Assembly: GCF_900172365.1 (NCBI RefSeq) | Contig: NZ_FWFJ01000016.1 | Span: forward strand, 1 to 64,000 | Origin: Roseovarius gaetbuli | GTDB lineage: Bacteria > Pseudomonadota > Alphaproteobacteria > Rhodobacterales > Rhodobacteraceae | Length of the DNA: 64,000 nt | Reading direction: 5' to 3' | In this document: positions 4,246 through 21,138 of the stretch, piece after piece | Layout: every line of letters starts with the position of its first letter | Numbering within the stretch: the first letter of the stretch is position 1 | Made by a program: the position numbers and the translations under genes | The notes under the pieces: generated by a model | What the model saw: the letters and a program-made list of their open reading frames with translations, nothing else | What the model was told of the DNA's origin: nothing | The model's database searches: none

Positions 4246-5475
4246 TTAACCAGCCATCTCGGCGCGATTCAGCGCACAGTGGCTCCAGAGTTCGTCCATC
4301 GCATTTACCAGCGCATCCATCTCGTCAGAGCCATGCACCGGCGAGGGTGTAAAGCGCAACCGCTCGGTGCCGCGTGGCACGGTCGGAAAGTTGATCGGCT
4401 GCACATACATGCCAAAACCTTCAAGCAACATATCGCTGAGTTTCTTGGTATGCACAGGGTCACCCACAATCACCGGCACGATATGCGAGCCGTGATCGAC
4501 AATCGGCAAACCCAATCCCTTGAGACGGGCCTTGAGAACTTTCGACTGTGCCTGATGCTGCTCACGCAGTTTTTTGCCCTCGGAGGTCTTGAGAAACGCA
4601 ACCGAGGCCCTGGCCCCCGCCGCCAGCGTCGGGGCCAGCGAGGTCGAAAAGATGAAACCGGGCGCGTAAGAGCGCACCGCGTCACACATCTTGGCCGAGG
4701 CCGCGATATAGCCGCCCATCACGCCATAGGCCTTGGCCAGCGTGCCGTTGATGATGTCCAGACGATGCATCAGCCGATCACGCTCGCAGATACCCGCGCC
4801 ACGTGGGCCGTACATGCCCACGGCATGCACTTCGTCGATATAGGTCAGCGCGCCGAATTCATCCGCAAGATCACAGATCGCCTCGATCGGGCCAAAATCG
4901 CCATCCATCGAATAGATGCTCTCAAAGGCAATCAACTTGGGCGCCTCGGGATCATCGGCGGCCAGCAACTCGCGCAGATGCTCAACGTCATTGTGACGGA
5001 AAATCCGCTTGGCACCGCCGTTGCGGCGCACACCTTCGATCATGCTGGCATGGTTCAGGGCATCCGAATAGATGATCAGCCCCGGAAACAACTTGGGCAG
5101 CGTGCTGAGCGTGGCGTCATTGGCGATATAGGCGCTGGTGAACAAAAGCGCCGCTTCCTTGCCATGCAGATCGGCCAACTCGGCCTCAAGCCGCTTGTGA
5201 TAAACCGTCGTGCCGGAAATATTGCGCGTCCCGCCCGACCCGGCGCCGGTGGCATCAAGCGCCTCATGCATCGCCTCAAGAACAACGGGATGCTGGCCCA
5301 TGCCTAGATAGTCATTGCCGCACCACACGGTGATCGGCTGTTCGCTGCCATCGGGCTTGCGCCAGATCGCGTGGGGGAAATTGCCATTGCGGCGCTCAAT
5401 ATCAATAAAGGTGCGATAGCGCCCTTCCTGATGCAGACGTTCGATTGCGTCGTCCAGCTTGGCAGAATAATCCAC
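4246..5475 (-). CDS. hemA: 5-aminolevulinate synthase
   Basis: A 409-residue alpha-oxoamine synthase that condenses glycine and succinyl-CoA into 5-aminolevulinate with PLP, the first step of tetrapyrrole synthesis by the Shemin route used in alphaproteobacteria. Visible signatures are [13 protein letters not shown] (about 77-89), [15 protein letters not shown] (214-228) and the PLP lysine in [12 protein letters not shown] (K248, the same number as in Rhodobacter HemA). Length and start are standard. The promoter region contains an FNR-type box at 5630-5643, about 155 bp upstream, matching known oxygen-responsive control of hemA by FnrL in Rhodobacter. Confidence 0.96.
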
Positions 5476-5629
5476 TGGCAGTCCCTTCCCTCACCGATGC
5501 CGCAGCCCGCCTTTTGCAAAGCGCCCTGCGGGCCGTAGCAGCGTAGCACGCTACTTATTCAATAATACGAATGGATATATAATCCACCCGCTTCTAGCAA
5601 CAGGCTACAAAATGCCGCCCCCCCCTACC

Positions 5630-5643
5630 TTGACTTGTGTCAA
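5630..5643. promoter_or_regulatory. FNR/FnrL-type binding site
   Basis: TTGACTTGTGTCAA is a perfect 5-4-5 inverted repeat matching the FNR-family consensus TTGAY-N4-RTCAA. It lies in the 236-bp gap between divergent hemA and the M20 dipeptidase. FnrL is known to control hemA in Rhodobacter; that it acts here is inferred from site and position. No fnrL gene is in the window. Confidence 0.7.
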
Positions 5644-5711
5644 GTCGCTGGACAGCACCGCAGGGCCTGTTACCCTCGGCTAAAAGCATAAATCAGCATC
5701 AAAGGCCAGCC

Positions 5712-16920: not shown

Positions 16921-17364
16921 TCAGTCCGCGCCCTGTGCAACCTGATCTTTCATGGGATCTTCCTCGCCGCCACCCGGCCCGCTGATCACGCTCGCGCCAC
17001 CGGCTTTGGGCTGGCGTATCTTGGCGACGATCACCCGCGCATTGGCCATTTCCTTGATCCGGTTCAGCTTGACCTTGCCGAGGGGCTGAAGGTTCAACTC
17101 ACGACCTTCCGCCAGAGCTTCGCCGAGAATTTCCAACACTGCCTCGACCACCGGCTTGGCGAGTTTCTTTTTGACATCTGTGCGGGTGACGACCTTGTCC
17201 AGAAGCTCTTGTTTCTTGAGTTCGGGCCCCGCGTCAGGGGTCATGTTTTCCGAAACGACAACGGGAGTGATGCTCTCTGCTGGATCCGCTTTTGGCGTGG
17301 GTGCGGGGGGGCTTGCCTTGGCGCTGGCTTGACGGCTTGCGGTTGTGCTGCGTCGCGTGCTCAT
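16921..17364 (-). CDS. HU/IHF-like DNA-binding protein with disordered N-terminal extension
   Basis: A 147-residue protein with a Ser/Thr/Ala/Pro-rich, positively charged N-terminal tail (about 1-45), then an HU-like domain (about 48-122: KKQELLDKVVTRTDVKK, VVEAVLEILGEALAEGREL, LPLGKVKLNRIKEMANAR-like strands) and a Gly/acidic tail. Within the domain, GRELNLQPLGKVKLNRI fits the HU beta-arm entry. Such extended HU-like proteins are common in Rhodobacterales and are presumed nucleoid-associated. The ATG at 17364 follows a GAGG motif at correct spacing; an upstream TTG at 17376 is less likely. It ends 20 bp before the tRNA-Val gene. No partner is evident. Confidence 0.75.
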   Translation of the reverse strand: MSTRRSTTASRQASAKASPPAPTPKADPAESITPVVVSENMTPDAGPELKKQELLDKVVTRTDVKKKLAKPVVEAVLEILGEALAEGRELNLQPLGKVKLNRIKEMANARVIVAKIRQPKAGGASVISGPGGGEEDPMKDQVAQGAD

Positions 17365-17493
17365 TTGATGCCTCAATTGTTTGTTTTATGGAAACAATCT
17401 AGCGCGCGAGCGACGAAATTACCAGCAACAGTTGACGAAACGGCACCTTGGGATCAAAATTGTTGCCTAACTTTTCAGACTTGCGGATTGACC

Positions 17494-17691
17494 ATGACAA
17501 GGACCATGACCGCCGCCATTATTGGCCTGAGCCTTTTGAGTGCACCCGCCCTTGCCAGCGGTCTTGCCGATCCGGTTGTCGCGCCCGAAGTGGTCGCCGC
17601 AGAGGCCACCGCATCCTCCGGTTCACTCGATAGCGCGATCCCGGCGTTGTTCGCCATTCTGGTGCTCCTGCACCTCGCCGGCGCGCTCTAA
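17494..17691 (+). CDS. Small exported protein, unknown function
   Basis: A 65-residue protein with a clear Sec signal peptide (MTRTMTAAIIGLSLLSAPALA, cleavage probably after ALA or ASG), a short Ala/Val/Glu-rich middle, and a C-terminal hydrophobic helix (about 49-65). It may insert in the membrane through that helix. Start at ATG 17494; in-frame starts further upstream would overlap the HU-like gene region on the other strand and add unrelated sequence. The middle (PVVAPEVVAAEATASSGS) resembles short proteins that sit near heme genes in related genomes, but that is memory and weak. It lies 211 bp before another small exported protein with a related signal peptide plan. Confidence 0.6.
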   Translation: MTRTMTAAIIGLSLLSAPALASGLADPVVAPEVVAAEATASSGSLDSAIPALFAILVLLHLAGAL

Positions 17692-17902: not shown

Positions 17903-18364
17903 ATGAAAAAACTACTTATCTCGACATTTTTTGCCTCAACGCTTGTGCTGACAGGCATGGCGCAGGCGGCGGAAAAGGCGCGTGTCAGCGCCAAACAGGT
18001 CCGCAGCGCGGCAACCGTTTCCTCGCAGGGCTCTGTCGGAAGCGCGGGTCCCGAGGTGGTCGTTCTGATCATCATGGCCATCGTCTTTATCACAGCACTC
18101 GTTTTCTCAGGCGGCAGCAGCGCAGGGACCTACCCGGCAATGATGAGTGACGAACGCCTGAAAACCGACATCAAACGGGTGGGCACCTCGCCCGATGGCT
18201 TTGGGATTTACCAATTCCGCTACAAGGGCCACGCCGAGCTTATCCAAGGCGCCATGGCCCAGGACGTGCAGCGTCTGCGCCCCGGTGCCGTCAGCCGCCA
18301 CAGATCCGGTTTCCTGATGGTGGATTACGGGCAGATCGACGTCGCCCCGCGCCTAATCGACTAG
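17903..18364 (+). CDS. Small exported membrane protein with miniature S74 (tail-fibre chaperone) domain
   Basis: A 153-residue protein. A Sec signal peptide (about 1-23, ending MAQAAE) is followed by a short linker, a transmembrane helix (about 51-69) and a C-terminal Peptidase_S74-like domain (about 80-150). The domain begins SDERLKTDIKRVG and continues with GIYQFRYKG, GAMAQDVQRLRPGAV and GFLMVDYGQIDV, all typical of S74 intramolecular chaperones of phage tail fibres and endosialidases. The Ser-x4-Lys dyad used for self-cleavage in that family is present (S82, K87). No phage genes are nearby. ATG 17903 follows GGGGGAA. Function unknown; it could self-process at the cell surface. Confidence 0.72.
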   Translation: MKKLLISTFFASTLVLTGMAQAAEKARVSAKQVRSAATVSSQGSVGSAGPEVVVLIIMAIVFITALVFSGGSSAGTYPAMMSDERLKTDIKRVGTSPDGFGIYQFRYKGHAELIQGAMAQDVQRLRPGAVSRHRSGFLMVDYGQIDVAPRLID

Positions 18365-18486
18365 AGACTGTCACGTTCGCTCAAAAATCACGCGACACCC
18401 TCTAACGGAATGATGTCGCAAGTTCGAAAATCTCAAAACCGGTTCCCACTTTTGAGCAACATGCTAACGGAATGATGTCGCATGTT
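18362..18486. repeat. Dispersed repeat, copy B, with internal direct repeats
   Basis: The core CTCAAAACCGGTTCCCACTT...GAGCAACATGCT (18432-18465) matches the core in the repeat at 1541-1645. Its ends CTCAAAA and TTTTGAG pair. CTAACGGAATGATGTCGCA occurs twice (18402-18420 and 18464-18482). As in the first copy, the element starts at the stop codon (TAG) of the upstream gene. It lies between the S74-like gene and the lon terminator. Confidence 0.75.
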
Positions 18487-18502: not shown

Positions 18503-18538
18503 AAACGAAATGCGGCGCAGGGCCTCCCCTGCGCCGCA
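18503..18538 (-). terminator. Intrinsic terminator of lon
   Basis: A 12-bp perfect stem (TGCGGCGCAGGG at 18511-18522, CCCTGCGCCGCA at 18527-18538) with a 4-nt loop. Read on the minus strand it is followed by TTTCGTTTGG. It lies 24 bp past the lon stop codon. Confidence 0.8.
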
Positions 18539-18562: not shown

Positions 18563-20974
18563 CTAGTGCGCGGTGGCACCTGTGCCCTCGCCGCCCCGCT
18601 TGATCGCGGCCTCGGCTGCGGCGGCCTCTTCGGCGGCCTCGTCCCATTCGACCGGCTCTGGTGCGCGCACCAGGGCCAGCTTGAGAACGTCACGCACGTG
18701 ATCGACCGGAATGATATCCAGACCCTGTTTGACATTGTCAGGGATCTCGACCAGGTCCTTTTCGTTCTCGCGCGGGATCAGCACGGTCTTGATGCCACCA
18801 CGCAGCGCCGCCAGAAGCTTTTCCTTCAGCCCGCCGATGGGCAGCGCATTGCCGCGCAGCGTGACCTCGCCGGTCATGGCGATATCCTTGCGCACCGGAA
18901 TACCGGTCAGCACCGAAACGATCGAGGTCACCATCGCAAGCCCAGCGCTTGGGCCATCTTTCGGCGTCGCGCCTTCGGGCACGTGCACGTGGATATCCCA
19001 CTTTTCGAACTTGGGCGGCTTGACCCCGATTTCGGGTGCAATCGAGCGGACATAGCTTGACGCCGCATCAATCGATTCCTTCATCACGTCGCCAAGCGTG
19101 CCGGTGGTTTTCATCCGGCCCTTACCCGGCAGGCGCAGCGCCTCGATGTTCAAAAGCTCACCACCCACAGAGGTATAGGCAAGCCCGGTGACAACACCGA
19201 CCTGATCGCTTTCCTCGGCCAGACCGTATTTGTACTTTCTGACCCCAAGGAAATCGCTGAGGTTCTCAGAGGTCACCCTGATCTGCTTGTCCTCGCCCTT
19301 GATGATCCGGGTCACGGCTTTGCGCGCCACCTTGGCGATCTCGCGCTCAAGGTTCCGCACACCGGCCTCGCGGGTGTAATAGCGCACCATATCGGTCAGC
19401 GCATCATCGCTCAGCTCGAACTCGCCCTTGCGAAGGCCGTTGTTCTTGACCTGCTTGTCGATCAGGTGCTGCTTGGCGATCTCGCGCTTTTCATCCTCGG
19501 TGTAGCCCGCCAGCGGAATGATCTCCATCCGGTCCAGAAGCGGCCCCGGCATGTTGTAGGAGTTCGCCGTGGTCAGGAACATCACGTCCGACAGGTCATA
19601 TTCGACCTCAAGATAGTGATCGACAAAGCTGCTGTTCTGCTCGGGATCGAGCACCTCAAGCATGGCGCTCGCCGGATCTCCGCGGAAATCCTGCCCCATC
19701 TTGTCGATCTCATCCAAAAGGATAAGCGGATTGGTGGTCTTGGCCTTTTTCAGCGCCTGAATGATCTTGCCCGGCATCGAGCCGATATAAGTGCGCCGGT
19801 GACCGCGAATTTCGCTCTCGTCACGCACGCCGCCAAGCGAAATGCGGATGAATTCGCGCCCGGTGGCGCGGGCCACCGATTTGCCAAGGCTGGTCTTGCC
19901 CACACCCGGCGGGCCGACAAGGCACATAATCGGCCCCTTGAGCTTTTTGCTGCGCTGTTGCACGGCAAGATACTCGACGATCCGTTCCTTCACCTTGTCC
20001 AGACCATAGTGGTCCTTGTCCAAAACGCTCTGCGCGCGGCTCAGGTCTTTCTTGACCCGGCTCTTCACGCCCCACGGGATCGACAGCATCCAGTCGAGAT
20101 AGTTGCGCACAACGGTTGCCTCGGCGCTCATCGGGCTCATGTTCTTGAGCTTCTTGAGTTCGGCATCCGCCTTTTCGCGCGCCTCTTTGCTCAGCTTGGT
20201 CTCGGCGATCTTCGCCTCAAGCTCGGCCACTTCGCCTTCGCCCTCTTCGCCATCGCCAAGTTCCTTCTGAATGGCCTTCATCTGCTCATTCAGATAATAT
20301 TCGCGCTGTGTGCGCTCCATCTGGCTCTTGACGCGGGTCTTGATCTTTTTCTCGACCTGCAAGACACTCATTTCGCCCTGCATCAGGCCATAGACCTTTT
20401 CAAGACGCTCGCTCACGCTCAGCGTTTCAAGCAGGTCCTGCTTTTTGTCGACCTCGATACCAAGATGCCCGGCCACCAGATCGGCAAGCTTTGCGGGCTC
20501 TTCAGAGTCGGTGACGGCGGCGAGCGCCTCGTCGGGGATGTTCTTTTTGACCTTGGCATAGCGCGCGAATTCATCGCCCACCGTGCGCAACAGCGCCTCG
20601 ATGGTGGTGGCATCGCCCGGCATCTCGGTGAGATACTCGGCGCGCGCCTCGAAGAAATCATCATTCTCAAGGTATTCGGTGATCCGCACCCGCGCCACAC
20701 CCTCAACCAGCACCTTGACGGTGCCATCGGGCAGCTTCAGCAGTTGCAACACGTTGGCCAGCACACCGGCACGGTAAATACCGGCCTCGTCCGGGTCATC
20801 AATGCCCGGGTCAATCTGACTGCTCAGAAGGATTTGTTTGTCGTCCTGCATCACCTCTTCCAGCGCGCGGACAGATTTTTCACGCCCGACAAAAAGCGGC
20901 ACGATCATATGCGGGAAAACCACAATATCGCGCAACGGCAGCACCGGGTAAGAGGCGTTCAATGGCTCTTGCAT
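18563..20974 (-). CDS. lon: ATP-dependent protease Lon
   Basis: An 803-residue Lon protease. The N-terminal substrate-binding LonN domain (about 1-200) starts [20 protein letters not shown]. It is followed by a coiled-coil helical region, the AAA+ module with Walker [12 protein letters not shown] and Walker [11 protein letters not shown]-type strand, and the C-terminal protease domain with the catalytic Ser in [11 protein letters not shown] and a downstream Lys in GLKEKLLAA. It degrades misfolded and regulatory proteins in the cytoplasm. Three ATGs are stacked at 20980-20974; I used the last because an AGGA motif lies 7 nt upstream of it. Single-gene transcript with its own terminator. Confidence 0.97.
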
Positions 20975-21138
20975 CATCATTTCCTGTTCTTGGCAAAAAG
21001 GCACTGGCCCTGACTATGCAGCAACCTCGGCCTTCTCCGTTTCACTGATGTTAATTTGGGGCACATCGACCCCGATTTCAACACGCGCTCCCCAGAATGC
21101 CCGTCCCGGCCCGCGGGGGCAAGGGCACAATAGGCAGG

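Follow-up and report, generated by a model that had tools for sequence, protein, structure and literature searches.

Peptidase S74 domains are known to act as checkpoints in the assembly of large trimeric fibres and of MyRF. The latter is described as a type II protein whose N-terminal part, a trimeric transcription factor, is released. In the account of its cleavage (PMC8326128), the substitutions S587A and K592A are reported to abolish cutting, and Y615, Y617, R590 and Q639 to affect it; the same account states that only trimers cut and that trimer formation depends mainly on a coiled coil at the C-terminus. For the fibres of Bdellovibrio, S782A is reported to abolish self-cleavage (PMC10769870). 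Discussed here is an S74 domain of 72 residues, without a coiled coil, carried on an ~80-residue membrane peptide, probably on the cytoplasmic side, and recurring beside lon.

The window is the whole stretch of DNA analysed, 64,000 nucleotides from Roseovarius gaetbuli (contig NZ_FWFJ01000016.1, positions 1 to 64,000). The parts of the protein P0001 and its small neighbour P0002 lie as follows.

17903..18364, plus strand: P0001, a 153-aa protein with signal peptide, membrane helix and mini-S74 domain (open reading frame and translation; dN/dS against the relative L006)
17903..17968, plus strand: signal peptide, residues 1-22, predicted to be cut after AQA (KK, hydrophobic core and A-x-A by eye, with a crude rule)
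17969..18055, plus strand: short segment ahead of the helix, residues 23-51, predicted periplasmic, N-module type A (S74-less relatives L008 and L010; K/R counting)
18056..18112, plus strand: membrane helix, residues 52-70 (hydropathy; AF2 model)
18146..18361, plus strand: mini-S74 domain, residues 82-153, 72 aa from catalytic Ser to C-terminus (PF13884, domain-only model, viral fold matches)
18146..18148, plus strand: Ser82, predicted nucleophile, with the predicted cut between residues 81 and 82 (conservation; equivalent of MyRF S587, PMC8326128)
18161..18163, plus strand: Lys87, predicted general base (conservation; equivalent of MyRF K592)
17494..17691, plus strand: P0002, a 65-aa S74-less member of N-module type B (type-B HMM, E 2.2e-7)

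What might such a small protein do? The reading we favour, tentatively and with a probability of about 0.4, is a self-removing or assembly-checking mini-S74 domain on a tiny inner-membrane peptide. P0001 would be a small protein that spans the inner membrane once, N-terminus out and C-terminus in, with the mini-S74 domain (72 residues) in the cytoplasm ~10 residues past the helix. The domain would fold and help or check assembly of the membrane peptide, and would then detach by self-cleavage at residues 81/82 by way of the Ser82-Lys87 dyad. The product would be a membrane peptide of ~59 residues after signal removal, similar in architecture to its S74-free relatives, of which P0002 is one. What we infer in this scheme is cleavage, the oligomeric state and the membrane peptide as functional product; the homology to S74, the conservation of the dyad and the occurrence of related membrane peptides with and without the domain are computational results, and the cytoplasmic topology follows by rule.

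P0001 is a real, constrained gene, since dN is 0.075 and dS 0.550 against L006, the nearest relative found (88% identical). By halves, the dN/dS values against L006 are 0.079/0.643 for the N part and 0.071/0.452 for the S74 part; the ratio for the S74 half versus the N half is ~0.16 versus 0.12 in this comparison, and 0.28 versus 0.39 against L007. Both halves are under purifying selection and neither stands out. An antisense or chance open reading frame is rejected in view of the low dN/dS together with homologues across genera. The sequence-only reading, an earlier look at the letters of this DNA, gave the coordinates and the length of 153 residues correctly, as the list of open reading frames and the translation show. 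It also put the cut directly after the membrane helix, in agreement with a helix at 52-70 and a predicted cut at 81/82; the AF2 model of P0001 has the helix at residues 50-69, with low to middling confidence there. In L006 (928-1962, minus strand), the mini-S74 gene is without its stop codon, and the frame continues antisense into lon.

The relationship to S74 is seen at the levels of profile, motif and fold. With hmmscan, the PF13884 match to P0001 is marginal (residues 82-130, E 3.1e-4, 21.4 bits, cut-off 22), and in a genome search with PF13884 the protein scores 24 bits, above the cut-off, as the sole S74 match above it in this genome. The profile also matches 36/36 members of the P0001 alignment, P0001 included, at E<=0.1 (best 9.4e-10). 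PHROG 6121, a virion structural protein family, matches residues 68-145 with E 7.4e-25, and the PHROG matches comprise virion structural, DNA ejection and tail fibre proteins; an NCBIfam search of P0001 gave nothing useful. The domain-only model has a pLDDT of 95.3 and a pTM of 0.80. Compared with viral models, it finds 20 matches at E<=1e-3 (best TM 0.91, rmsd 1.0), eight of them named as intramolecular or endosialidase chaperones and six unnamed. Foldseek against solved structures gave no P0001 match at E<=0.001. In a second structure comparison with the PDB, the MyRF ICA domain came first (Z 3.8, rmsd 2.3 over 57 residues, 28% identity), and it came first again in another run (Z 3.7, rmsd 1.8 over 51 residues), a rank that by Z alone is tied with unrelated kinases.

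P0001 belongs to the Peptidase_S74 sequence family PF13884, with its profile, its Ser-x4-Lys dyad and its fold. By its predicted model it is not a classical trimeric coiled-coil intramolecular chaperone of the endosialidase or MyRF ICA type: the coiled-coil helix at the C-terminus is missing, with 72 aa from Ser to the end and a model that has no long C-terminal helix. The S74 homology had been proposed from the letters of the sequence, with a profile search and a structure prediction as the way to check it; both bear it out, the first by the PF13884 match and the second by an S74-like fold that resembles viral chaperone models.

Would the domain cut? Ser82 and Lys87 both lie within SDERLK. 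Ser and Lys are present together in 58/58 distinct host-group domains, counted over HMM columns, and not with a motif, at E<=1e-6, where the host group is all loci not separated by number, including the long open reading frame L079, and leaves aside L300, with Gly for Ser, and two distinct Bartonella domains that are unaligned over these columns. The S82/K87 dyad pointed out in the sequence-only reading is thus present and its two residues are conserved among homologues. A long-ORF group, separate from the host group, has both in 18/19 with one gap, and in viral-contig domains both are found in 41/42, the remaining one being an alignment gap. As a side observation, nine Bartonella loci (L085, L087-L094, ~4998-5190) carry a frame of ~380 aa that ends in a mini-S74 domain where Cys replaces the catalytic Ser (CDVRAKENI).

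Other residues can be compared as well. We take F105, Y107, R85 and Q120 of P0001 to be the counterparts of MyRF Y615, Y617, R590 and Q639, by our own alignment. Among host rows, chosen mostly via the SD...K motif, which itself fixes S, D and K, the equivalents of these cleavage residues are Y107 in 50/51, an aromatic at F105 in 51/51, R85 in 49/51 and Q120 in 47/51. G116, A119 and A129, which have no known catalytic role, are invariant in 51/51 host rows, as are S and K.

Self-cleavage of P0001 is less certain than the motif implies, because the domain is without the coiled coil that drives the MyRF trimer. Either an oligomer might be supplied by the membrane helices (or, in phages, by the cargo), or such short S74 domains might not cut. 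The second case, in which the domain would be retained for oligomerisation or binding in the cytoplasm and Ser and Lys kept for folding, is somewhat unlikely. It is consistent with the missing coiled coil, cleavage of MyRF being reported to require the trimer (PMC8326128), and with the three residues just named that are as invariant as S and K. Yet the Arg at +3 of the motif is free to vary in the viral-contig domains, where it is retained in just 12/42, whereas S and K are not, and the equivalents of the residues round the cutting hole of MyRF are largely kept.

The membrane part can be followed separately from the S74 domain. Among 40 distinct small S74 proteins, with odd ones (lipoproteins, leader-like) set aside, two kinds of N-module occur, type B in 34/40 and type A in 6/40. 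Type B consists of a signal peptide, a short segment like PVxxPxVxxE...SSS and a helix. P0001 has type A and P0002 type B; type A also occurs without S74, in L008 and L010 (83 and 88 aa). The tiny exported protein that the sequence-only reading saw next to P0001 is P0002, 65 aa, 17494-17691.

A type-B HMM, trained on S74-bearing proteins alone after trimming off their first 18 residues and their S74 domain, was run on the open reading frames beside lon at 90 loci. These loci were drawn from the 144 genomes that had a lon match, in order of decreasing lon similarity, and the frames lay <=1500 nt from the lon stop. At E<0.01 there were 19 open reading frames beside lon and 0 in reversed sequences. 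Three are S74-bearing training proteins; the other 16 are S74-less, lie outside the training set and occur in 15/90 loci, P0002 among them. S74 itself is found beside lon in 5/90 loci, and two loci carry both S74-less and S74 members; in L193 an S74-less member and an S74-bearing one stand in tandem, as they do in the window. Judged by this profile, P0002 is related to the N-terminal part that most S74 proteins carry, and has no S74 domain itself. A corresponding HMM for module A found L143 (E 4.6e-5); calls for this module are weaker than those for module B, as one reversed sequence reached 0.0048.

Is the S74 domain a detachable part? The S74-less proteins beside lon have 59-78 aa with a median of 65 (15 measured, leaving out L195, the weakest S74-less match), and the catalytic Ser of S74-bearing proteins stands at a median position of 72.5, ~10 residues past the helix. 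In L300, also beside lon, an open N-part is followed by a TAG and then by a recognisable S74 sequence (82.6 bits), with Gly at the former catalytic Ser position two codons after the TAG. From these lengths and from L300, the membrane part can stand alone and S74 can be lost near the predicted cut site. The frequent absence of the domain from relatives suggests that S74 is a detachable part of a membrane peptide. L300, which comes from the order search and lies outside the 90-locus survey and the 58-domain count, can be looked upon as S74 loss seen in progress. A search for S74 relics 3' of S74-less genes at 20 loci gave none above shuffled controls.

The idea that S74 passed, within this genus, from modules of type B to those of type A is unsupported, as 5/6 type-A domains cluster in a weakly supported tree. 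In that tree the type-A domains of L005, L006, L007, L041 and L012 are close, with L099/L102 among them, and that of L013 is apart.

The S74-less family is found more widely. Matches at E<=0.01 occur in 23/36 genomes searched and in 21/22 of the same genus; some of the weaker ones, in long open reading frames, extend over just the front half of the profile and may be signal peptides alone. An S74-less paralogue of P0002 (L220, 2511-2696) lies beside ferrochelatase (PF00762, 1.8e-107) in the same genome. Four more stretches, picked as search matches, have a ferrochelatase-like open reading frame; the small protein is visible in three of them, and the fourth has the search match only. Pfam and NCBIfam searches gave no database name for the tiny membrane peptides linked to hemH and lon.

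The presence and absence of the domain also bears on a different possibility, quite unlikely in our estimate, of a signal release like that of MyRF, in which a soluble, cleaved 72-aa domain would be active in the cytoplasm and the helix would be its tether. The cytoplasmic topology predicted by rule fits such a role, as does an S74 half that is as constrained as the N half in dN/dS. The module is nevertheless found without S74 in 15/90 lon flanks and with S74 in 5/90, with two loci that have both, and phage structural proteins end in the same short domain. P0001 has no DNA-binding or enzyme family at its cut-off in Pfam and NCBIfam, and no DNA-binding families are among its matches in these databases at E<=10.

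The surroundings of the gene include the following features.

16921..17376, minus strand: HU-like DNA-binding protein (PF00216, E 9.7e-8)
18511..18538, plus strand: terminator-like hairpin between P0001 and lon (1 found versus 2.3 expected in shuffles)
18563..21004, minus strand: lon protease gene, convergent with P0001 (TIGR00763, 2.8e-297; PF05362, 3.5e-93)

The hairpin is no evidence of function, because shuffles would give as many or more. Between P0001 and lon there is also a 23-nt direct repeat, in two copies 62 nt apart (window 18402-18486). A further identified neighbour is a Na+/H+ antiporter. The earlier remark that no phage genes are nearby holds for the identified neighbours (HU-like, Na+/H+ antiporter and lon), which are the genes it has been checked on. 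A phage remnant is rejected in view of these neighbours and of the recurring convergence with lon.

The position beside lon is a repeated one. Near the mini-S74 gene of the named loci L041-L084, where some contigs end early, lon similarity is present in 29/44 and HU-like similarity in 19/44. The S74 gene is convergent with lon in 26/26 proteins measured, from 25 loci with lon similarity, at a median distance of 128 nt and a longest one of 1244, measured from the lon alignment. Mini-S74 genes outside the lon-linked set are in other places or on short contigs. L047 has tandem mini-S74 genes (4788-5216 and 5237-5665) ahead of lon, and L226, which IMG/VR lists among its viral contigs and which carries lon, an HU-like gene and a mini-S74 gene, is probably a bacterial contig.

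Has S74 been inherited together with lon? Distances among S74 domains correlate weakly with those among lon genes in a Mantel test (r 0.16, reached by 827/9999 permutations, n=20), and in a second run (r 0.14, 379/9999 permutations, n=32), whereas the HU-like protein tracks lon well (r 0.63, 0/9999 permutations, n=20). Joint inheritance is therefore a weak proposition, at r 0.14-0.16 versus 0.63, and S74 may be a cassette that is subject to exchange and not just to loss.

The viral affinities of the domain raise the prospect of a phage counter-measure, whereby a domain derived from phage structural or ejection proteins would mis-assemble with incoming phage S74 proteins at the inner membrane. 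Twenty-five phage records match the domain, seven of them Sulfitobacter phages; the PHROG families matched are of the virion structural, DNA ejection and tail fibre kinds, proteins that S74 ends; and the spread is patchy (30/394 family genomes in a limited first look), with the poor tracking of lon. We regard a counter-measure as very improbable even so, as PADLOC models matched neither P0001 nor P0002 at E<=1 (0 families) and the place beside lon recurs.

On which side of the membrane would the domain be? In 44 proteins, counted after removal of 21 residues as signal peptide from each, with lipoprotein-like proteins in and L006, L032, L070 and L074 out, K/R residues after the helix exceed those before it in 40, are equal in 1 and are fewer in 3. 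P0001 itself is the tie, and L041, one of four other type-A proteins counted, has fewer K/R after the helix. With 4 K/R on each side, the charge rule is uninformative for P0001, and the argument for it is the order of signal peptide and then a single helix, which puts the C-terminus in the cytoplasm whether the signal is cleaved or not. By rule, the S74 domain of P0001 probably faces the cytoplasm. The idea of the sequence-only reading, that the C-terminal domain could be set free into the periplasm or at the surface, might draw on the signal peptide, on the tied charges of P0001 and on two mini-S74 lipoproteins of Rhizobium plasmids with no helix by eye, probably exported whole, but it is most unlikely given the one helix that follows the signal peptide, charges that put the C-terminus inside in 40/44, and mini-S74 domains on proteins that by eye have no signal peptide (L032, L070, L074).

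The mini-S74 gene is sporadic within its family. In a first sample, relatives of P0001 were found in 7/60 genomes, two of the relatives being without S74. Domain matches were found in 30/394 genomes of the family (a limited first look, with nine candidates scored per genome), 25/292 of the order (E<=1e-4) and 25/385 of the class, counts that include long open reading frames of other architecture. Among named genomes, a scan yielded 54 loci, nine of them Bartonella; most of the others are presumably Rhodobacteraceae, going by family or genus names in the record titles. The distance from Ser to C-terminus is 71-73 residues in 40/48 distinct proteins.

Several observations extend beyond the membrane peptides. 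Rhizobium plasmids make up 70/73 of the plasmid records matched by the domain; the plasmid loci L281 (2686-3324) and L282 (2548-3330) encode a lipoprotein with a Gly/Ser linker and a mini-S74 domain, with a caspase-family gene beside one and an isoprenylcysteine methyltransferase gene beside the other. The mini-S74 proteins of L032, L070 and L074 have no evident signal peptide and start, by eye, with a leader-like Y-x-x-P sequence that is reminiscent of RiPP leaders; they have no NCBIfam match at E<=0.1. In L102 (1351-1731), mini-S74 is found behind a lasso-peptide-like leader (NF033521, E 0.0031, 17.5 bits, cut-off 19), adjoining a partial lasso-type cyclase (2-1375; NF033535, 7.2e-49, below its cut-off). 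L099 has a lasso-like precursor similar to that of L102, with no cyclase seen, and a ring from Gly-1 to Asp-8 fits both by eye.

Could mini-S74 be a general self-removing 'follower' for small alphaproteobacterial peptides, i.e. membrane peptides, lipoproteins and the lasso-like L102, that cuts after assembly or modification? This broader idea is doubtful, and we would hold it loosely. If true, a phage virion-assembly device would have turned into a device for peptide maturation. In a literature search, mostly of open-access journals, none of the titles and abstract openings listed pointed to a mini-S74 on a membrane peptide, and nothing relevant on S74 with lasso peptides or with Rhodobacter was among the matches listed.

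How does the self-removing or assembly-checking domain proposed here compare with the described systems? The MyRF ICA domain (PDB 7dc3) is similar in being a membrane-tethered S74 near a helix, with the dyad S587/K592 corresponding to S82/K87. P0001 differs in its length of 153 aa and its opposite orientation, and is without the beta-helical stalk, the large N-terminal cargo and the C-terminal coiled coil; as against a MYRF-like transcription factor, it has no match to a DNA-binding cargo. The endosialidase tail-spike chaperones (3GW6) and the neck appendage 3gud have the SDxxxK start and the Gly-x-x-Ala-Gln core in common with P0001, which matches 3gud weakly in sequence (E 0.018). In these, however, the chaperone forms the terminal part of large trimeric fibres or appendages, whereas in P0001 72 aa sit on a membrane peptide with no coiled-coil helix.

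Closer in size are the phage mini-S74 proteins of PHROG 6121, where Ser to C-terminus measures 66 residues in Sulfitobacter phage pCB2047-C and 64 in Pseudomonas phage PAE2. Among loci on viral contigs, Ser is present in 55/55 and the Ser-to-end distance is 68-83 residues in 52/55 (one of the 55, L226, being bacterial). Their cargo is structural, with an open reading frame of 291-488 aa in 49/55, and not an exported membrane peptide. The MAT fibres of Bdellovibrio, as described in PMC10769870, are likewise chromosomal bacterial S74 proteins with SDxxxK, and some members are without S74, as here, but they are typically trimeric fibres of ~1,000 aa outside the cell. Finally, the tiny membrane peptides linked to hemH and lon have the N-module that is common to P0002 and the type-B mini-S74 proteins, and no S74 domain. 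The small domain makes three points testable: whether S74 can work without a coiled coil, whether membrane helices can be its substitute, and what role the tiny membrane peptides have, including those beside hemH.
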